Shown one piece after another: positions 4,125-42,737 of a DNA stretch of 48,761 nucleotides. The DNA lies in contig NZ_JABFVK010000106.1 in NCBI RefSeq assembly GCF_013362815.1, positions 1-48,761 on the forward strand. Direction: 5' to 3'. The translations under genes and the position numbers were made by a program. The notes beneath the pieces are model-generated. The model did no database searches, was not told the DNA's origin, and saw only the letters and a program-made list of their open reading frames with translations. The DNA is from Hamadaea sp. Lineage in GTDB: Bacteria; Actinomycetota; Actinomycetes; Mycobacteriales; Micromonosporaceae. Within the stretch, counting starts at the first letter, position 1. Each line of letters opens with the position of its first letter.

Positions 4125-4613
4125 ATGATCCCGGGCTCAGGCATCCCGACCACCGTGGAAGTCATCCTGCTCTCTCAGCGGGACGGCCGGCTGCGCTATC
4201 GCACGGTACGCGCCGGACTGCGGAGCGGCGCGTTTCCCGACGACGTTGCGCTCGGCTTGTCCGGCCTGAAGTTGTGCACCCCCGGTGGGTTGCTGCACTC
4301 GACGTCCTGGCGGCATACCGCCGACACCCTGGTGCTCACGTATGCCGCCCTCCCCGATCCCCGGCCGGACCTGGCCTCGGCCGACGTCTCCGTCGACGGT
4401 ATGCGCTCCGGCCTCGGCCCGCTCGTGCCCAGCCCGCCCAGCATCGACGCCGACGCCGTGGCCGCCCACGCCTGCCGCCACCTGGCACTACTGCGTACCA
4501 CCGACGATTTGGCCGCCGACGCCGCTCGGTCGCAGCCCGAACTCTGGACCCTCATCGCGAAGCTGATGCCGGGGACGGCGGGGAGTCCGCACCCTCCGCA
4601 CCTCGTCTGCTGA
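4125..4613 (+). CDS. Uncharacterised actinobacterial protein
   Basis: About 162 residues from the ATG at 4125; an in-frame ATG at 4095 is an alternative and neither has a Shine-Dalgarno sequence. Nothing recognisable. There is no signal peptide or membrane segment. It opens with a beta-rich stretch (VEVILLSQRDGRLRYRTVRA) followed by a Gly/Leu-rich part, and ends with an alpha-helical region (HACRHLALLRTTDDLAADAA). Codon use has the strong G/C third-position bias of its neighbours, which supports coding. It is divergent from the amidohydrolase and followed 15 nt later by inverted-repeat copy B. Confidence 0.6.
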   Translation: MIPGSGIPTTVEVILLSQRDGRLRYRTVRAGLRSGAFPDDVALGLSGLKLCTPGGLLHSTSWRHTADTLVLTYAALPDPRPDLASADVSVDGMRSGLGPLVPSPPSIDADAVAAHACRHLALLRTTDDLAADAARSQPELWTLIAKLMPGTAGSPHPPHLVC

Positions 4614-4628
4614 CCCCTTCGGGCTCTA

Positions 4629-4689
4629 CCGGATCACGGATCTGGGTCCATCCCGCCCCAAGATTCGACCGAGAACCCTGATCCAGCGC
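4629..4689 (+). repeat. Inverted-repeat element, copy B
   Basis: Plus-strand counterpart of copy A, differing at only 2 of 61 positions. The ends are CCGGATCACGGATCTGGG and CCGAGAACCCTGATCCAG around the loop CCCCAAGATTCG. It starts 15 nt after the stop of the gene at 4125-4613, the same position relative to transcription as copy A, which suggests a 3'-end or terminator role. Copies A and B face each other and bracket the 2866-4613 gene pair. Confidence 0.85.
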
Positions 4690-4719
4690 AGAAAGGACAG
4701 GTGAGGTTAGAGTCACCGC

Positions 4720-7340: not shown

Positions 7341-8058
7341 TCAGTGAAGCACCGACCTATAGACCTCTTCATATCCGGCGGCCATCGTGGCCACGTCGAA
7401 TCGCTGTTCGACATGGGAGCGGCAGGCACGGGCAGTCAGTTCCGGAAGGCGGCCGAGAGCGGCGGCCAGTTCCTCCGGCTCGGTGCAGACGAACCCCGTA
7501 CGCCCGTGGTCGACGACTTCGGGGACGGATCCGTCGGCCAACGCCACGACCGGAGTGCCGCACGCCATCGCCTCGATCATCACCATCCCGAACGGCTCCG
7601 GCCAGCGGATCGGGAAGAGCAGCGCGGAGGCCTTGGCGTACAGCTCTCGTTTTAGTTCGGCGTCGGCCTCGCCGACGTAGGTGACGCCACTGCCGAGCAA
7701 CGGGCGGACGACCTCGTCGAAGTACGCCTCCTCGGCCGGTTCGTTCATCTTCCCGGCCAGCACCAGTGGACGCCCGGCCTCCCGGGCGGCCTTGATGGCG
7801 AGGTCGGCCCCCTTGTCCTCGGTGAACCGCCCGATGAACAGGACCCAGTCCTCCTTGGTCTCGCAGAACGGATAGTCCGCGACCTGGAGTCCGTTGTAGA
7901 CGGTGGCGACCCAGTTCAGGTCGGGGGCCCGGGAGCGCTGCGACTCCGAGATGGCGACCAGCGCCAAGTCCTTGCCGAATTGGCGGTAGTACTCGCCCGG
8001 CTCGCCGTCGAGCGGGCCGTGCATCGTCGCCACCGTCGGAGCGTGCCGCGCGGCCGCG
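7341..8058 (-). pseudogene. Glycosyltransferase family 4 remnant, N-terminal domain missing
   Basis: About 239 native residues remain. They show the GT4 C-terminal Rossmann domain: VLFIGRFTEDKGADLAIKAA, then PEPFGMVMIEAMACGTPVVA (the nucleotide-sugar-binding E-x7-E region), and a tail that ends normally at 7341. Upstream, PTVATMHGPL belongs to the end of the acceptor domain, so roughly the first 100-130 residues are gone. Beyond 8058 the frame runs on only as antisense of a discoidin domain; a GTG at 8099 is the first possible start but encodes no family sequence. The gene would have joined a nucleotide-sugar donor to a glycan or lipid acceptor. Without promoter and acceptor domain it is probably dead. 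Confidence 0.8.
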
Positions 8059-9957
8059 TTCAGCGATCCGCAATGGCTGCGGATCGATCTCGGCTCCACC
8101 GCCTCCGTCAGCCAGGTCGTGCTGCGGTGGGAGGCGGCTTACGCGACGGCGTACCAGATCCAGGTCTCGGCCGACGGAGCCGCGTGGACCACCGTGTACA
8201 GCACTTCCACGTCGACCGGCGGTACGCAGACTCTCGCGGTCACCGGTTCCGGCCGTTACGTACGCGTCTACGGCACGGCCCGGGCGACGGCGTACGGGTA
8301 TTCCCTCTGGGAGTTCCAGGTCTACGGGACCACCGGCTCGACCGGCTGCAACACAAGCACGAACGCGGCGCTCGACAAGCCCGCGACCGCCTCTTCGACC
8401 GAGAACGCCGGTACGCCCGCTTCCGCCGCGGTCGACGGCAACGGCGGGACTCGGTGGTCGAGTGCGGCCGCCGATCCACAGTGGATCCAAGTCGACCTCG
8501 GGTCGACGCAGTCGATCTGCCAGGTGACGCTCACCTGGGAGACCGCGTACGCGACGGCGTACCAGATTCAGGTGTCGGCCGACGCGGCGACGTGGACCTC
8601 GGTCTACAGCACCACCACGTCGACCGGCGGCACCCAGACGCTGACCGTCGCCGGATCGGGCCGCTACCTCCGGGTCTACGGAACGGCCCGGGCTACCCAG
8701 TGGGGCTATTCCCTCTGGGAGATCGCCGTACGCACCACCGGCGGTACGCCGCCGACCAGCAGCCCGCCCCCGACCGGTGGCGACGTTCTGCTCTCCTACA
8801 ACAAGCCGGGCGTGGCCTCGACTTCGCAGAGTGACGCGAACTGCTACGAGTGCACCCCGGCCCGCGCGTTCGACCTCGATCCCGCGTCCCGCTGGGCGAC
8901 CAGTTCCACGACGGGCTGGGTCGATCCGGGCTGGATCTACGTCGACCTGGGTGCGACCGCCGCGATCCATCAGGTGATCCTCCAGTGGGATCCGGCGTAC
9001 GCGACGGCGTACCAGATCCAGGTGTCGCCGGACGCCGCGAACTGGACCACGATCTACAGCACCACGACCGGGCACGGGTTCAAGGAGACCCTGACGGTCA
9101 ACGGCACCGGTCGCTACGTGCGGATGTACGGCACCGCCCGGAGCAGTGCGTACGGCTATTCGATCTGGGAGTTCCAGGTCTACGGCACCGGTGGCAACCC
9201 GACGACCCCGCCGGCCCGCCAAGCCGATCCGACCTTCCCCGCGACCCACCTCGTGTTCAGCGACGAGTTCAACGGGGCCGCCGGCACCAAGCCGGACGCT
9301 GCGAAGTGGACGATCGACACCGGCACCGGCCAGAACGGCGAGCTGCAGTACTACACAAACAACGCCAACGCGTCGATGAACGGGACGGGTTCACTGGTGA
9401 TGGAGGCTCGCCGGGAGACCGTCGGCGGCAGCAGCTACACCTCGCACCGGATGAACACCGGCGGCAAGTTCACCTTCCAGTACGGCCGCGTCGAGGCCCG
9501 GATCAAGGTCCCGAAGGGCAACGGTTTCTGGCCCGCCTTCTGGATGATGGGGGCCGACTTCCTCACCGGGCGGCCCTGGCCGTACAACGGCGAGGTCGAC
9601 ATCATGGAGATCCTCGGCAAGGACACCACTCGCAGCTACACCACTCTGCACGCGCCCGCGTACAACGGGGGTGGCGGTTATGGGTTCGAGAAGATCTGGC
9701 CGACGGACCTGTCGGCGGACTATCACGTGTACGCGGCCGAATGGGACAGCAAGGGCATCCGCTTCTTCGTGGACAGCACGGAGGTGTTCTACGCGAGCAA
9801 GGCGACCGTCGAGGCGACCCGCGGACCGTGGGTGTACGACCACCCGTTCTACGTGATCCTCAACCTCGCGGTCGGCGGTGACTGGCCCGGCGCGCCCGAC
9901 GCCACCACGCCGTTCCCGTCACAGATGCTCGTCGACTACGTCCGCGTCTACCAGTAG
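8059..9957 (+). pseudogene. Discoidin (F5/8C) x3 - GH16 glucanase, 5'-truncated
   Basis: The frame encodes three coagulation-factor 5/8 C-type (discoidin/CBM32-like) domains, each with a DPxW...DLG core and a GRYVRxYGTAR strand, then a GH16 catalytic domain with the signature GEVDIMEILG. The nucleophile and acid/base Glu are present at ~9592-9609. It ends normally in VDYVRVYQ. GH16 enzymes cleave beta-1,3/1,4-glucans outside the cell. The first discoidin domain starts in the middle (FSDPQWLRIDLGS), no signal peptide is present, and no ATG, GTG or TTG lies in frame between a stop at 7987 and a GTG at 8119 inside the domain. A shortened 612-residue product from 8119 is conceivable but would not be exported. 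Confidence 0.85.
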
Positions 9958-9975: not shown

Positions 9976-11025
9976 CTAGGCCGAGCCGCGCTCGACGAGT
10001 TCCGGATGGAAGATCACCGAGCGCGGCCGGCCGTCGGGCTCGCGGATGCGGGCCAGCAGGAGGCGGGCCATCTCGGCGGCCATCTCCTCGATCGGCTGCC
10101 GGATGGTGGTCAGCTGCGGACGGCAGGCCAACGCCGAGACGCTGTCGTCGAAGCCGACGACGGCCACGTCCTCGGGAATCCGCCGGTCGAGGTCGCGTAA
10201 CGCTTGCAGGGCGCCCTCGGCCATCAGGTCGTTGGCGACGAAAAGCGCGTCCGTCTCCGGGTACGCACTCAGCAGCGCCCGGGCGGCGCGTTCACCGCCG
10301 GCTCGGGTGAAGTCGGCCGGCTCGGCCGGGACGAAGGCGTACCCGTGGACGGCGAGGGCCGAGCGGAACCCGGCGAGCCGATCCTGCCCGGCGGTCGTGT
10401 CGAGCGGGCCACAGACGGTCGCCGGATGCTTACGCCCCGACGCGATGAACCGTTCGGCGGCGAGCCGGGCGCCGGTCTGCTGCTCGACGTCGACATAGCT
10501 CATGGGCAGCGGTCGGCCGGGCCGGGCCGACAACACCGCCGGTACGCCCAGATCACACAGCTGCTGCGGGAGCGGATCGGCGACGTGGCTGGAGATGAGC
10601 AGCACCCCGTCGACGTGGCCCTGGCGCAGATAGCGGAGGACCTGCTGCCGGGCCGGCGCGTCCGCAGGCATGATCACCAGGTGGATGCCTTCCGGGCGCA
10701 GCACTTCCAGCGCGCCCGCGGTGATCCGGCCGAGGTACGGGTCGGTGAAGATCCGGCTCAGGAACGGCTCGGCGAACTCCCGGTCGGCCGGTTCGGAGAC
10801 GACCAGCGCGACCGAATCGGTCCGGCGGGTCACCAGCGATCGTGCCGCGTGGTTCGGGACGTAACCGGTCGCCTCGATCGCCCGTTCCACGATCTCCCGG
10901 AGTTCGGGGTCGACTGTGGACACCTGATTGATCACGCGGGACACGGTCGACCGGCTCACGCCCGCGTACTCCGCGACCTGCTCTAGCGTGGGCGCACGGG
11001 GCGCGGGCGGACGAGGGGCGGCCAT
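9976..11025 (-). CDS. LacI family transcriptional regulator
   Basis: About 349 residues from the ATG at 11025; a TTG at 11034 is also in frame. The N-terminal DNA-binding domain is classical LacI (TLEQVAEYAGVSRSTVSRVI), with a hinge helix ending NHAARSLVTRRT. The periplasmic-binding-like sugar domain follows (VALVVSEPADREFAEPF, VVGFDDSVSALACRPQLTTI). Such proteins repress sugar-uptake or glycoside hydrolase genes until an oligosaccharide binds. The gene is convergent with the GH16 remnant, whose lost promoter may have been its original target. A GAGCGCTC palindrome in its own promoter suggests autoregulation. Confidence 0.94.
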   Translation of the reverse strand: MAAPRPPAPRAPTLEQVAEYAGVSRSTVSRVINQVSTVDPELREIVERAIEATGYVPNHAARSLVTRRTDSVALVVSEPADREFAEPFLSRIFTDPYLGRITAGALEVLRPEGIHLVIMPADAPARQQVLRYLRQGHVDGVLLISSHVADPLPQQLCDLGVPAVLSARPGRPLPMSYVDVEQQTGARLAAERFIASGRKHPATVCGPLDTTAGQDRLAGFRSALAVHGYAFVPAEPADFTRAGGERAARALLSAYPETDALFVANDLMAEGALQALRDLDRRIPEDVAVVGFDDSVSALACRPQLTTIRQPIEEMAAEMARLLLARIREPDGRPRSVIFHPELVERGSA

Positions 11026-11034
11026 GGTGCCCAA

Positions 11035-11065
11035 TCTATAGCAACGAAGCCGGAGAGCGCTCCCC
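11035..11065 (-). promoter_or_regulatory. LacI gene promoter with GAGCGCTC operator
   Basis: A palindrome with core GAGCGCTC (11055-11062, extended to GGAGAGCGCTCCCC) lies about 15 nt upstream of a TATAGA -10 element (11035-11040, minus strand). It resembles the TGGGAGCGCTCCCA operator of CebR/BglR-type LacI regulators. The site would cover the -35 region of the LacI gene. Confidence 0.6.
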
Positions 11066-26548: not shown

Positions 26549-26565
26549 ATACCCCAGGTGGGTAT
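26549..26565 (-). promoter_or_regulatory. CsoR-like copper operator
   Basis: ATACCC-CAGGT-GGGTAT: perfect 6-bp arms around a 5-nt centre, 12 nt before the DUF6153 start. The form matches copper-sensing CsoR operators (TACCC...GGGTA), which are emptied of repressor when Cu(I) binds. No csoR gene is in the window. Confidence 0.6.
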
Positions 26566-26612
26566 TAATGCACGGACAGGTGCCCGTGATTCGTGATCTG
26601 CAGCCCAAAAGG

Positions 26613-27029
26613 CTAGGCGGCGAGGAGTCCGATCCCGAGGGTCAGCGACCCGGCGGCGAGGCAGGCCGCGCCCAGCCAGAGGATCACGACAGCCTTGGTC
26701 GGCTGGGTCACGTTCCGGCCGGCTGAAGCGGCGAAGAACCCGCCGGACATGAGAATGGCGGCGGCGGGGATGAGCAGCCGGACGAGCCAGCCGGTCGCAC
26801 CGTCGAAGGTGGTCGCGTCAGCGAGCACCTGGGCGACAAGCCCCAGCGTCACCAGTACGCCCGCGTGCGCGTGCCCGGCTCGCGCGAAGGCCTTCTGGAA
26901 GTCGGTCATCGGCACCTGGCCCCGGACGATCTTCGTCATGAACCAGCCGCCGAACTCGATGGTCACGATCGAGAGCAGCAGGATGCCGGAGACGATCCGG
27001 CTGGCGTCGCTGAGCACGAGGTGGTTCAT
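26613..27029 (-). CDS. Four-helix membrane protein
   Basis: 138 residues from the ATG at 27029 with GGAGG 5 nt upstream. Four membrane helices: ASRIVSGILLLSIVTIEFGG, AGVLVTLGLVAQVLADA, WLVRLLIPAAAILMSGGFF and AVVILWLGAACLAAGSLTLG. A conserved-looking loop FARAGHAHAGVL carries a His pair inside the membrane zone. I do not recognise a characterised family; similar proteins are common in actinobacteria. It lies upstream of the copper block but beyond its operator, so it is probably a separate transcription unit, divergent from the GTPase pair. Confidence 0.75.
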   Translation of the reverse strand: MNHLVLSDASRIVSGILLLSIVTIEFGGWFMTKIVRGQVPMTDFQKAFARAGHAHAGVLVTLGLVAQVLADATTFDGATGWLVRLLIPAAAILMSGGFFAASAGRNVTQPTKAVVILWLGAACLAAGSLTLGIGLLAA

Positions 27030-28831: not shown

Positions 28832-30420
28832 AGCTGGACTCCGTGGTCGATCGGGTCGGCGCGCTCCGCGAATTCGTCGAGACGACCTCGCCGTACCTGC
28901 CCGCCGACGAACTCGCCCCGGCTCAGGCTGTAGTGGACCGGGCCGGAGAACGGCTCGCGCTGTCCCGGGCGCATACCGTGGTGGCGTTGGCGGGTGCGAC
29001 GGGTAGCGGCAAGTCCACCCTGTTCAACCGGCTCGCCGGAGTGGAACTCTCGCCCGCCGGGCGACGGCGTCCCACCACTGGTGAGGCGTACGCGTGTGTC
29101 TGGGGTTCCGGCGCGGACGAGCTGCTGGACTGGCTTGACGTCGTCAAGCGCTACGGCGTCCCGGCCGGCGAGCTCGACGGCCTGGTCCTGCTCGACCTGC
29201 CCGACTACGACTCCGTCGCGGCGTCCCACCGCGTGGAAGTCGACCGGCTTCTGCGAGTGGTGGACCTGATCGTCTGGGTGCTCCACCCCCAGAAGTACGC
29301 CGACAAGGTGGTCCATCGGCAGTATCTCGAACAGTTCGCCGCGCACAAGGACGTGACCGTCGTCGCGTTGCACCAGGCGGATCTGCTGTCGCCCGAGGAC
29401 CTCCGGGAATGTCTGTCCGATCTGGACGATCTGTTGCGGGCCGACGGGCTGGCCGGCGTACCGGTGGTCGCCACGTCCGCCGTCGGGCCGCCGGGGCTGG
29501 ACCCGTTGGTCACCCAGCTGACCGGCGCCGTACGCCGCAGGGAGGCGGCGCTCCGTCGGCTGGACGCCGACGTCACAACGGTGTCGGCGCAGCTCGCCCC
29601 ATTGGTGGCCGCCCCGGCTCCGGAGGTCCCGAAGGCGTCGCAGAAGGCGCTCGTCGACGCGCTCGCCCACGCCGCGGGCGTACCCCTGGTCGCGTCCGCC
29701 ACCGAGCAGGCGTACGTGCATCGCGCCCGGAAGGCGACGGGCTGGCCGTTCGCCCGGTGGGTACGCCGATTCCGCGCCGATCCGTTGCGCCGTCTGCGAG
29801 TGGGCTCCGCGTCGGCCGGTTCCACCGTCGGAGCCACCTCCATCGGACCGGCCGCCCCGGCGGCTCAGGCCGAAGCCTCGCTCGCCGTACGCCAGATCGC
29901 CGAGGACGCCGGACGCGGGCTGGCCCCGCCGTGGCAGGACGCGCTGCGTACGGCGGCTCGGTCGCGCCGGGACGACCTGCCCGACGCCTTGGACGTCGCG
30001 GTCGCGCGTACCGACCTGAAGTTGGATCGCAACCCGCGCTGGTGGCGGACTTTCGGGCTCCTGCAATGGATCGCCGCGCTGGCCGTCGTCGCCGGAGTGC
30101 TCTGGCTGCTCGTGCGCTACGTCATGTTCGCGCTCGCGCTGCCGGAGATCCCGATGCCCGAGGTCGGCCGGGTTCCGCTGCCGACCTTCCTCCTCTTCGC
30201 GGGTCTCCTGGTCGGCCTCGGGCTCGCCTTGCTCGTCCGGCCGATCGTCCGCCTCGCCGCCCGGCGCAAGGGTCGGCGGGCGTACGCACGCCTGCGGTCC
30301 GCCGTCGTACTCGTCGCCGATTCGCACGTGCTCACCCCCGTACGCGGCGTGCTCGACGCGTACGCCCGCGCCCGCTCCCTCCTCGGGACGAAGAGGGAGC
30401 GGGTCGGCGGGGTGGGCTAG
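28828..30420 (+). CDS. YfjP-type/dynamin-like GTPase, second of a coupled pair
   Basis: 530 residues, ATG overlapping the stop of the first GTPase. Motifs: P-loop GATGSGKST (56-64), RRPTTGEA (G2), LLDLPDYDSV (G3), and ALHQADLLSPED in the G4 position. A helical middle region is followed by two C-terminal membrane helices (LLQWIAALAVVAGVLWLLV and LPTFLLFAGLLVGLGLALLV). NCBI-style naming would be YfjP family GTPase. Matching G2 sequences and translational coupling suggest a 1:1 hetero-oligomer with the first protein at the membrane. The stop overlaps the convergent GH8 gene by 4 nt. Confidence 0.85.
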   Translation: MKLDSVVDRVGALREFVETTSPYLPADELAPAQAVVDRAGERLALSRAHTVVALAGATGSGKSTLFNRLAGVELSPAGRRRPTTGEAYACVWGSGADELLDWLDVVKRYGVPAGELDGLVLLDLPDYDSVAASHRVEVDRLLRVVDLIVWVLHPQKYADKVVHRQYLEQFAAHKDVTVVALHQADLLSPEDLRECLSDLDDLLRADGLAGVPVVATSAVGPPGLDPLVTQLTGAVRRREAALRRLDADVTTVSAQLAPLVAAPAPEVPKASQKALVDALAHAAGVPLVASATEQAYVHRARKATGWPFARWVRRFRADPLRRLRVGSASAGSTVGATSIGPAAPAAQAEASLAVRQIAEDAGRGLAPPWQDALRTAARSRRDDLPDALDVAVARTDLKLDRNPRWWRTFGLLQWIAALAVVAGVLWLLVRYVMFALALPEIPMPEVGRVPLPTFLLFAGLLVGLGLALLVRPIVRLAARRKGRRAYARLRSAVVLVADSHVLTPVRGVLDAYARARSLLGTKRERVGGVG

Positions 30421-32723
30421 GGCACCCAGTAGTTGCCGGAGACGACGATCATCACCTGCAACTGGACGGACATGTTGTAGTACTCCGTGCTGCCGAACGT
30501 GTGCGACACCATGTGGTTCCACAGCGCGTCCAGCCAGGCCTGGCTGCCGGAGTCGGTCATCGCCGCGACCGCGAACGGCGCGTAGAAGCACGCGTCGTTG
30601 CCCGAGTCGAGGTTGCTGCCGCTCAGGGAGTAGCCGTCGACAATGCTGGCGGGATTGCCGCCGGTCTTCGACTTGATCCAGGTGTTCATCTTGCGAGCCG
30701 AGGTCAGCGAGGCGGAGTTTCCGCTGGTGACCGCATCCGCGCCGATCCGCCACGGCGTACGGCAGGAGTTCCAGTAGTACTTGCCGTCGTTGGCGCTCTC
30801 CAGAACCTGCCCGGTCGGCGGCTTCGGCGTCGTGTTGGTGGTGACGACGAAGTCCGGCAGCAGCCCGGTGCTGGGGGCGTACTGGCTCTGAAGGTTCGTG
30901 ATGAGGGTCTGGTGGGCGGTGCGGATGGTGTCCCACGCCGAGTCACCGGTCGCGACCCGGAACGCCCGCATGTGGTCGATCATGAAGTCGGACGGCCGGG
31001 TGGTGTAGTACAGCGCGTCGCAGCAGGTGCTCCAGTCGCCGAGCCTCAGCAGGTTCGTCGCCGGGTTGATCTCGCTGGCCTTGATGGCGTTGATCCGCTT
31101 GATCGCCAGCTGCTTGTAGTTGTAGGTCCCGGCGCTGCCCCACTGCTTGTCCGCCAGCAGCAACGCGTACGCCACATCCAGGTCGCCGTCGGTCGCCGAG
31201 TCGGAACCGTTGACGCTCTTGCAACTCGTGTCCTGTTCGGCGGCGAGGAGGTCGGCGTTGTTCACCGAGGGATGGGCCAGGACGTACTTCACCATGCCGT
31301 CGAAGATCGTCTTGGCGCTGGCGTCCGCACCGGCCATCGTCGCCGTGATCACCATGCCGTAGCCCTGACCCTCGGCCACGTACGGGTGGTCGGCGTCCGG
31401 CGAGATGGTCTCGTACCAGCCGTTGCCGCAGTTCTGCTTGACGAAGTTCGCCTTCCACTTGTTGTAGACCGTGATCACTGCTTGGTCCAGAGTGGACTGC
31501 GATCCGGACGGCTTGAGCATGCCGGCGGCGTACGGGAACGAATGGCTCCCGAACGGCACGGCCGGACCGCCGGAGCTGCCACTGGTAGTGGCGGTGACGG
31601 AATTCGAGGCAGCCGAGCTGTTGCCAGCCGCATCATGAGCCTTCACGGTGAACGTGTACGCCGTCGCAGCGGTGAGCCCACCCACGGTGGCAGAAGTTCC
31701 CGCGACGGTGGTGGCGAAAGTGCCGCCCCGGTAGACGTCGTAGCCGGTGACGCCGACGTTGTCGGTGGACGCGTCCCAGGCCAGGCTCACGCTGGACGAG
31801 GTCACCCCGGTCGACCGCAGGTTGCCCGGAACGGTCGGCGCTTCGGTGTCGCCGCCTCCGCCGCCCCCCGTCACGCCGAGCGTGTCGACGTTGGGTCCAC
31901 CGTTCGCGGTCGTCGCGGTGGCCCGGATGGTGTTCGAGCCCGCGGCCAACGAAGCCGTCACCGCTTTGCTCGCCCAGGTGTCCCAGTTCGCGGTGCCCGG
32001 GAAGGAGACTCCGGCCGCGACGACGGTGCCGTTCACGGCGATGTCCATCGGCCGGTCCACGGTCGTGCCGTTGGCGTACCGGAAGGTGAGGGTCTGGCTG
32101 CCCGCGGCGGCCGCGCTGACCGTCCATTCCACGTAGGAGCCCGCGATGTTGGTGTAGTCGACGAACCCGGTGCCGGTGTAGCCGGTGTGGTTGGTCGCGA
32201 CCGCAGCCTGCGAAAGGACCGCGTTCTCCGCCTGGTAGTCGCTCGACGGGGCCGCGATGTCGACGTCCAGGTAGTCCAGGTTGGCGGGCCCGTTGACGGT
32301 CGTCGCCGTCACTCGCACCGTGTTGCTCCCGGCGGCGAGCGTGGCCGTCAGCGTCTTGTTCGCCCAGGTGTCCCAGTTGGTGGTGCTCCCGAAGGCCGAA
32401 GCCGCCGAGACGACCGTGCCGTTCACCGAGATGTCGGCCGGGCGGCCGGTGGTGGTGCCGTTGGAGTAGCGGATCGTCAAGGTGGCGGTGCCCGCGTTGG
32501 CCGCGGTGACCGTCCACTCCGTATAGCTGCCCACGACGTTGTCGCCGTTGACGAAGCCGCTACCGGAGTAGTTGAGGTGGTTGGCCTCCACCACGCCCTG
32601 CGAGATGGTCGCGTTCTCCGCCTCGTATCGGGTCGCCGCCGCCGCGCCGGGCGTCGCCGGCGACAGCGCCGCCACGAGGGCCAGGCCGGTGGCGAGGGCG
32701 AGACCTCTTGCGTATCGCTTCAT
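30417..32723 (-). CDS. Secreted CBM35 x2 - FnIII - GH8 glycanase
   Basis: 768 residues. Signal peptide of ~30 residues (ending PGAAAA). Two tandem CBM35-type modules (about 32-155 and 162-285), each with YEAENA/YQAENA, GSGFV/GTGFV and NWDTWA motifs, are followed by a GGGGGG linker and one fibronectin III domain (~296-385). The GH8 catalytic domain (~395-768) has EGQGYGM (general acid Glu451) and TDGDLDVAYALLLAD (about 510). GH8 enzymes are inverting endo-glucanases, xylanases or chitosanases. A GTTAG-N9-CTAAC palindrome upstream resembles operators of chitosanase genes, weakly favouring chitosan as the substrate. CBM35 modules usually bind uronic acids, mannan or xylan. Confidence 0.92.
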   Translation of the reverse strand: MKRYARGLALATGLALVAALSPATPGAAAATRYEAENATISQGVVEANHLNYSGSGFVNGDNVVGSYTEWTVTAANAGTATLTIRYSNGTTTGRPADISVNGTVVSAASAFGSTTNWDTWANKTLTATLAAGSNTVRVTATTVNGPANLDYLDVDIAAPSSDYQAENAVLSQAAVATNHTGYTGTGFVDYTNIAGSYVEWTVSAAAAGSQTLTFRYANGTTVDRPMDIAVNGTVVAAGVSFPGTANWDTWASKAVTASLAAGSNTIRATATTANGGPNVDTLGVTGGGGGGDTEAPTVPGNLRSTGVTSSSVSLAWDASTDNVGVTGYDVYRGGTFATTVAGTSATVGGLTAATAYTFTVKAHDAAGNSSAASNSVTATTSGSSGGPAVPFGSHSFPYAAGMLKPSGSQSTLDQAVITVYNKWKANFVKQNCGNGWYETISPDADHPYVAEGQGYGMVITATMAGADASAKTIFDGMVKYVLAHPSVNNADLLAAEQDTSCKSVNGSDSATDGDLDVAYALLLADKQWGSAGTYNYKQLAIKRINAIKASEINPATNLLRLGDWSTCCDALYYTTRPSDFMIDHMRAFRVATGDSAWDTIRTAHQTLITNLQSQYAPSTGLLPDFVVTTNTTPKPPTGQVLESANDGKYYWNSCRTPWRIGADAVTSGNSASLTSARKMNTWIKSKTGGNPASIVDGYSLSGSNLDSGNDACFYAPFAVAAMTDSGSQAWLDALWNHMVSHTFGSTEYYNMSVQLQVMIVVSGNYWVP

Positions 32724-41045: not shown

Positions 41046-41095
41046 CTCCTCGCTACGGTGCGTATCCACTGTGTATACGGACCGTTATCGGTTCA

Positions 41096-41117
41096 GGGTC
41101 GTCGTGAGGCACGACCC
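41096..41117 (+). other. Hairpin in the leader of the SpaA-like gene
   Basis: GGGTCGT (41096-41102) pairs with ACGACCC (41111-41117), 8-nt loop, ending 21 nt before the start codon. A CGTAT...ATACG repeat lies just upstream. May be a 5'-UTR stem; function unknown. Confidence 0.35.
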
Positions 41118-41138
41118 ATCCGAAGAGGAGCCAAATCC

Positions 41139-42737
41139 ATGATCGGAATCAGGCCGCCCCAGGGTGGTCGCCGGCGGGTGCGCATCGCCATCGCGTCCGC
41201 TGCCGCAATCTTCGCGGCATTCACCTTCACCAGCCAGGCGTACGCGCATCCGGACGTCAGCCTGGCGGGCAGCAATTTCGAGATCGACACCGACGCCAAC
41301 CTCAAGGTGGATCACTCCGCTCCGTCACTCGACTGGGCGAATGTGACCGAGATCCGCAAGCAGGACACGGCGAGCGGATCGGGCGACGAGTCGTTCGGCC
41401 AGGGCACCAAAGAGGACACCGCCGTCCCGACGGTCGTCAGTGGGAGCATCCCGCCGAACAAGAGCGACCTGAAGTACTTCGGCATCTACCAGGAGGGGAC
41501 CACCACCACCGGGTTCCTCAACCTCTACTGGGCCCGGGTGCAGGACCCGTCCGGCACGACCAACATGGACTTCGAGTTCAACCAGAGCAAGACGAAGTCG
41601 GCCAACGGAGTGACCCCGGTACGCCAACCCGGCGACCTGCTCATCACCTATGACCTCGACAAGGGTGGTACGCAGCCGACGCTGTCACTGCGCTCGTGGA
41701 GCGGCACGGCGTGGAGCGCGCCGATGAACCTGACCGCGTCCAACCTCGCCACCGGCTCGATCAACTCGTCGGCGATCCCGGCCGCCCAAGCCGACGGACT
41801 CGGCGGGCTGGACCCGCGTACGTTCGGCGAGGCGCAGATCGCCCTCGCCGGGATCTTCTCGCCGACCGTCTGCGAGTCGTTCGGCTCGGCGTACTTGAAG
41901 AGCCGCTCGTCGTCGGCGTTCCCGGCGGAGGTCAAGGACTTCGTGCCACCGCAGACGGTTAACATCACCAACTGCGGCACGGTGAAGATCCACAAGGTGG
42001 ACGACGCCGGTACGCCGCTGAGCGGTGCGGAGTTCACGCTCTACTCCGACGTCGCGCCGACCGGGGGTACGCGCGACAACGGGGACACCGCGACCGCGTT
42101 CAAGTGCACCACCGACGCCGCCGGTGACTGCACGATCAGCAACGTGCCATCCGGTGAGTACTGGGTGGTCGAGACGATCGTCCCGTCGGGCCACGATCCC
42201 GCGATCGACCAGCACATCACCATCACGCCCGGTGGCTCGGTCACCCTCGACCCGGTCACGAACCCGCGGAAGCGGGGCGCGATCCTGGTCACCAAGACGG
42301 AGAAGCACGCCGCCGCGCCGACCGGCTCGCAGCCGCAGTCCGGCGTCTCGTTCACCGTCAACGGAGTCACGAAGGCGACCGACGCCACCGGCCAGGCCTG
42401 CTTCGACGGCCTGCTCTTCGGCTCGTACACGGTGCACGAGACCGTCCCGGCGAACTACGTCGGCGAGCCCGACAAGATGGTCACCGTCGACAATGCGGCG
42501 TCCTGTGCGGACACCGTCTACGCCGGTGAAGGCGTCTCGTTCGTGAACAAGCCGCTGACCACCATCACGGTCAGCTCGACGTCACAGGTGCCCGGCGGCA
42601 CCGCCGCGAAGATCAGCTGCAGCGGGCTCACACCCGACCCGGCCGACGGTACGCCGAACGCGTTCGACGACACCTCGGAGGCGTACAAGGATCTCGCACC
42701 CGGGACGTACAGCTGCACGGTCGTGATCGACCCGTAG
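41139..42737 (+). CDS. Secreted SpaA-type prealbumin-fold surface protein
   Basis: 532 residues, GAGGAG 8 nt upstream of the ATG. Signal peptide ends at TSQAYA (36). Residues ~40-280 form a large domain (DANLKVDHSAPSLDWANVTE, DLKYFGIYQEGTTTTGFLNL) seen in actinomycete secreted proteins annotated as prealbumin-like fold domain-containing. Then two SpaA-type collagen-binding/pilin modules (~281-370, GTVKIHKVDDAGTPLSGAEF; ~385-470, VSFTVNGVTKATDATGQACF). The last ~60 residues (TITVSSTSQVPGGTAAKISC) are beta-rich. There is no LPXTG signal or C-terminal membrane helix, so it is probably released, not sortase-anchored. Role in the envelope or adhesion inferred. Confidence 0.82.
   Translation: MIGIRPPQGGRRRVRIAIASAAAIFAAFTFTSQAYAHPDVSLAGSNFEIDTDANLKVDHSAPSLDWANVTEIRKQDTASGSGDESFGQGTKEDTAVPTVVSGSIPPNKSDLKYFGIYQEGTTTTGFLNLYWARVQDPSGTTNMDFEFNQSKTKSANGVTPVRQPGDLLITYDLDKGGTQPTLSLRSWSGTAWSAPMNLTASNLATGSINSSAIPAAQADGLGGLDPRTFGEAQIALAGIFSPTVCESFGSAYLKSRSSSAFPAEVKDFVPPQTVNITNCGTVKIHKVDDAGTPLSGAEFTLYSDVAPTGGTRDNGDTATAFKCTTDAAGDCTISNVPSGEYWVVETIVPSGHDPAIDQHITITPGGSVTLDPVTNPRKRGAILVTKTEKHAAAPTGSQPQSGVSFTVNGVTKATDATGQACFDGLLFGSYTVHETVPANYVGEPDKMVTVDNAASCADTVYAGEGVSFVNKPLTTITVSSTSQVPGGTAAKISCSGLTPDPADGTPNAFDDTSEAYKDLAPGTYSCTVVIDP

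Follow-up and report, generated by a model that had tools for sequence, protein, structure and literature searches.

Two divergent genes meet head to head near position 8,055 of the window, by which we mean the whole stretch of DNA analysed here (bases 1-48,761 of contig 27 in a 7.45 Mb assembly of 124 contigs). How did a GT4 glycosyltransferase (GT) gene and a discoidin-GH16 gene come to lose their N-termini at a single point? The initial annotation had described both genes as broken at about 8050-8065 and offered two explanations, one deletion or a misjoined assembly. Indeed, at 8055-8058 the last 238 codons of the GT4 gene (minus strand) abut the GH16 gene (plus strand) from codon 67. As judged from the sequence of one assembly of one strain, this is probably the result of a true, single and very recent deletion of ~0.7 kb in the lineage of the strain.

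The GT4 remnant (7341-8057, minus strand) corresponds to codons 105-342 of the 342 codons found in a relative. Its open reading frame covers 7341-8099 and has a GTG start (8099) that lies within antisense GH16 sequence. GT4 sequence is present from AAARHAPTV onwards, the point at which the minus frame had been noted to leave the family. In the remnant, Glycos_transf_1 (PF00534) was matched by Pfam and the N-terminal GT4 domain PF13439 had no match. In the intact GT of the Hamadaea relative G002, the N-terminal GT4 match extends over residues 22-129 and is mostly within the lost part. GT-B enzymes require both domains, and the one lost here is the acceptor-side domain. The discoidin-GH16 remnant (8058-9957, plus strand) corresponds to codons 67-698 of the relative's 698; start, signal peptide and the first 28 residues of discoidin 1 are lost. 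As described before, the plus frame ending at 9957 has an in-frame TAG at 7987-7989 and its earliest ATG, GTG or TTG is a GTG at 8119. Three F5/8 type C domains and a GH16 domain were matched in the remnant. Discoidin 1 spans residues 39-151 in the intact G002 protein, its beginning being lost in the window. NCBIfam matches to the beta-glucanases EglC and BglS were far under their cut-offs.

The window was compared with its genus, represented by four genomes: its own, G001 (one contig), G002 (830 contigs) and G003. G001 and G002, two of the three other genomes, are collinear with the window on both flanks for several kb each way at 86-89% identity. Exactly at the join, G001 has 711 bp and G002 722 bp of extra sequence (arithmetic from the alignment registers). 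This stretch encodes GT residues 1-104 on one side and, on the other, GH16 residues 1-66 including the signal peptide; between them lie the divergent promoters and two palindromes resembling operators. Both frames are intact in G001 and G002 (GT, 342 aa; GH16 protein, 698 aa), and the two starts are divergent, separated by 202 bp and 213 bp, respectively. The synteny comparison suggested by the initial annotation thus finds the promoters and both N-termini absent as one stretch. Intact orthologues stand at the same place in both close relatives, and the loss extends to starts, promoters and essential domains, as in a pseudogene pair of the deletion type. G003 offered no orthologous flank pair; against the GT flank it has just two matching stretches, 57 and 95 bases long, and its longest good discoidin match is at 77%.

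Further evidence comes from GT homologues in named genomes. Among the best 80 of 593 homologues, 79 loci have an open frame that continues past the break to a start codon 80 or more codons further upstream (median 122.5); in the exception, L079, the contig end is reached after 61 codons. A natural start at the break is ruled out by these loci, and the window form is therefore no natural variant. Homologues naturally beginning at this point had been named as an observation that would speak against a truncation. No GH16 partner of the GT was detected in 37 loci outside the genus (L024-L059, which are 36 of the 80, and L159) at E 1e-15 in flanks of up to 8 kb, many of them shorter. The GT4-GH16 pairing therefore looks restricted to the genus on these sequences.

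The junction itself could be narrowed to a few bases. Similarity to the left side of the relatives ends at 8057 and similarity to their right side starts at 8055, leaving a 3-bp exact overlap, CGC (8055-8057), that is compatible with both flanks. The relatives bound the join between 8054 and 8058. It had been placed within GCGGCCGC (8050-8057), read as a short GC-rich microhomology. The location holds; the 8-bp microhomology does not, as the octamer sits within the left-hand (GT) sequence and CGC alone fits both sides. With 14 copies in the window (69% GC), GCGGCCGC, a NotI site, has no special place at the join. An 11-bp overlap given by the BLAST ends was cut to 3 bp on inspection of the alignment, because 8058-8065 only partly match the relatives' left side. 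The true overlap may be a few bases longer or shorter, since the ancestor is inferred from relatives at 86-89% identity.

The two ends of the lost stretch resemble each other imperfectly. In the join register, this likeness was compared with that of random pairs sharing a 3-mer over three spans, all selected once the match had been seen. Over the span of 55, picked post hoc, 29 of 55 positions are alike in G001 and 28 of 55 in G002, and 6 of 1143 and 9 of 1146 random pairs, respectively, were as good. The similarity over a span of 36, likewise chosen afterwards, was reached by 1 of 1226 and 8 of 1201 pairs; over a post hoc span of 15 it was weak (42 of 1137 and 159 of 1207). Of the 12 bases beyond the overlap 7 are alike, which is seen in 659 and 665 of 20000 random pairs. 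The likeness of the ends hints at slippage involving imperfect direct repeats. The genome also has three Ku genes, and given these, end joining and slippage are equally possible.

The principal rival is an assembly error, with both genes whole in the strain and ~0.7 kb skipped by the assembler or by a chimeric read. The assembly is a draft in 124 contigs, and the strong palindromes of the missing stretch might have lost coverage. Against this, the window contains no N, and from the way assemblers behave the 3 bp in common at the join would be too short for a k-mer or overlap join. A misjoin might also have left the missing piece elsewhere, and the initial annotation had proposed a search of the remaining genome for the GT N-terminus and the GH16 signal peptide. 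Among the candidates scored, DNA and protein searches of the 124 contigs found no orthologous copy of the missing stretch, only paralogues. With an 821-base G002 query, DNA matches of at least 100 bases were only 69-82% identical (40 of 518 first-look candidates scored), for example 81% over 220 bases at C17 and 71% over ~300 bases at C22. These are paralogues, the identity of orthologous DNA being 86-89%; the same search recovered the known flank beside the break at 95% over 64 bases, and short chance-like matches reached 96% over 27 bases. In each of two protein searches 42 of 42 candidates were scored. The orthologous GT match starts at residue 100, and paralogues of the full-length GT lie at C17 (54% identity) and C22 (56%). 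For the discoidin part there are four relatives at 73-75%, and the nearest paralogue of the GH16 catalytic part (C78) is at 48%; paralogues of both proteins thus exist in the genome. Relocation or inversion of the missing N-termini was likewise considered, and nothing above paralogue level was found in the own genome (40 of 518 DNA candidates scored).

Nor is the region full of such breaks. In the part collinear with G001, 29 of 33 gene-like G001 ORFs are covered to at least 85% in the window, the GH16 gene among them (93%). The four below this value are the GT (68%), an absent 335-aa ORF, a GH6-type ORF (70%) and a 358-aa ORF (34%). In our judgement the GH6-type ORF of G001 is probably read too long, because its counterpart in the window has a signal-peptide-like start of its own, and the 358-aa ORF, which runs antisense to a small ORF of the plus strand where collinearity breaks at 17.1 kb, is probably spurious. 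Six further breaks relative to G001 are located near 14.75, 17.1, 21.5, 26.6, 27.1 and 41.0-42.8 kb. At 26550-26620 G001 is ~1.1 kb longer (window 26595 to 26611 versus G001rc 29704 to 30821), a whole-gene indel in which the 335-aa ORF is unmatched in the window. At 41058-42737 the window has ~1.8 kb with a 559-aa ORF versus 0.3 kb in G001. Judging by the sequences compared, no clear cut through conserved genes other than the GT/GH16 break was found in this stretch. Short similar intergenic stretches (~60-80 bp) lie at 2779-2851 and 4609-4700 and match G002 in both orientations (L105 5655-5716 and 15920-15996); they may represent a dispersed palindromic repeat. The window has no tRNA genes.

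Taken as marks of a misjoin, gap Ns, a long repeat at the join and the missing piece elsewhere were all looked for and not found, a picture that a skip leaving no trace would also give. The single missing stretch bears out the alternative of one deletion or a misjoin, and the lack of Ns, the 3-bp overlap and the lack of an orthologous copy elsewhere favour the deletion. An assembly error is less likely because there is no N and only 3 bp are shared; we regard it as unlikely, yet as an explanation to be taken seriously.

Selection on the remnants was estimated as omega on a three-genome tree (window, G001, G002) with 870 codons pooled. Pooled omega was 0.0825 on the window branch and 0.0826 in the relatives. 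The genes taken singly gave the same result, with 0.092 for the window branch versus 0.093 for the two relatives together (GT) and 0.077 versus 0.078 (GH16). The GT value of the window depends slightly on the alignment (0.083 with 236 codons, local; 0.092 with 238 codons, full). Eight usable control genes nearby had window-branch omega values of 0.063-0.196; a DUF397 row that was evidently out of frame (internal stop, dS near 0) was omitted, and there was no row for GH6. Both remnants are free of internal stops, with frames that stay open as far as the native stop codons. For the window branch the neutral part was estimated at 0 (bootstrap 95% range -0.048 to 0.051), and with 870 codons neutral evolution over more than ~5% of this branch is excluded. 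Relaxed selection after the loss was thus not seen in omega, and old pseudogenes are ruled out. Since there is no decay, the deletion is very recent, the assembly is in error, or the remnants are still in use. A deletion in this lineage would then fall within the last ~5% of the branch that began with the divergence from G001 and G002. The zero relaxation speaks for an assembly error as well, because the genes would then be intact in the living strain and absence of decay is equally expected.

That the remnants still work is very improbable. Under this reading the C-domain of the GT and a discoidin-GH16 protein confined to the cytoplasm would be made from new starts (GTG 8099, minus strand; GTG 8119, plus strand) and be under selection. 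The truncated pair as a working new state, in which loss of the operator-bearing promoter was selected and at least one shortened protein is expressed under purifying selection, is just as improbable. The open frames and an omega equal to that of intact relatives would fit, but recency explains the low omega equally well. Moreover, the promoters and native starts are both gone, the GH16 protein has lost its signal peptide, a GT-B enzyme needs both domains, and the N-terminal half is open in 79 of the best 80 of 593 GT homologues. A gain of 0.7 kb in G001 and G002, starting from an ancestral short arrangement, is a bare possibility for which no support was found and hardly deserves credence, being in effect refuted by the GT homologues, in which the N-terminal part is general, and by the domain matches, the extra stretch completing two conserved protein families simultaneously, one on each side.

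In the preferred reading, a single deletion of ~0.7 kb would have fused codon 105 of the GT4 gene to codon 67 of the divergent gene for a secreted discoidin-GH16 beta-glucanase. With it both starts and both promoters would have gone, along with two operator palindromes of the LacI type. Either slippage between imperfect direct repeats or end joining dependent on Ku, with the 3-bp overlap, may have produced it. Both remnants are probably non-functional pseudogenes, because one is a GT-B enzyme that has lost its N-domain and the other a secreted glucanase that lacks promoter, start and signal peptide.

A LacI-family regulator gene (9976-11034, minus strand) is intact and convergent with the GH16 remnant; it is the probable regulator of the lost divergent promoters. 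An operator-like site, GGAGAGCGCTCCCC (11052-11065, no strand), lies upstream of it and has GAGCGCTCCC in common with the two palindromes of the missing stretch. These palindromes, GAGGGAGCGCTCCCTC and the near-perfect GAGAGAGCGCTCCCTC, were found in the GT-GH16 intergenic stretch of the relatives, and both relatives also have a site like GGAGAGCGCTCCCC at the corresponding distance upstream of the LacI gene. The 16-mer GAGGGAGCGCTCCCTC was not found in the literature searched. GGGAGCGCTCCC is present at 9 places in the genome of the strain, all outside the window. The LacI protein may control itself and the divergent GT4/GH16 promoters, and the deletion would leave it without its two putative targets there.

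If real, the locus shows at a very early stage how one deletion can disable a divergent gene pair along with the operators, and the intact relatives would point to a probable LacI-GH16-GT4 regulon. For annotation, the GT4 and GH16 genes should be treated as partial and not as short natural variants.

The locus can be compared with three known systems. Like other GH16 endo-beta-glucanases with F5/8 type C (discoidin) domains, the plus-strand protein has three F5/8C stretches and GH16 with the EVDIME motif; unlike them, the copy in the window lacks the signal peptide and part of discoidin 1. The event itself is probably an ordinary recent pseudogenization by one short deletion. It resembles the short low-homology-deletion pseudogenes of the illegitimate recombination or NHEJ type, in that one collinear stretch is gone, a 3-bp overlap and Ku genes are present, and the reading frames past the join are intact. 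It differs from them in that a single event disables two divergent genes and their common control region. For the operators, the parallel is CebR of Streptomyces, a LacI-type regulator of secreted cellulases with the box TGGGAGCGCTCCCA, some tabulated boxes having single outer-base changes (PMC5332605). The inner 12 bases of TGGGAGCGCTCCCA are contained in the first lost palindrome, GAGGGAGCGCTCCCTC, and the LacI-family gene, which adjoins the GH16 gene, is itself preceded by a similar site. The full box was not found in either palindrome, the inner 12 bases being present in one of the two; at the outermost positions it has A...T for T...A, the second palindrome has less in common with the box, and the putative targets are GH16 and GT4 genes.
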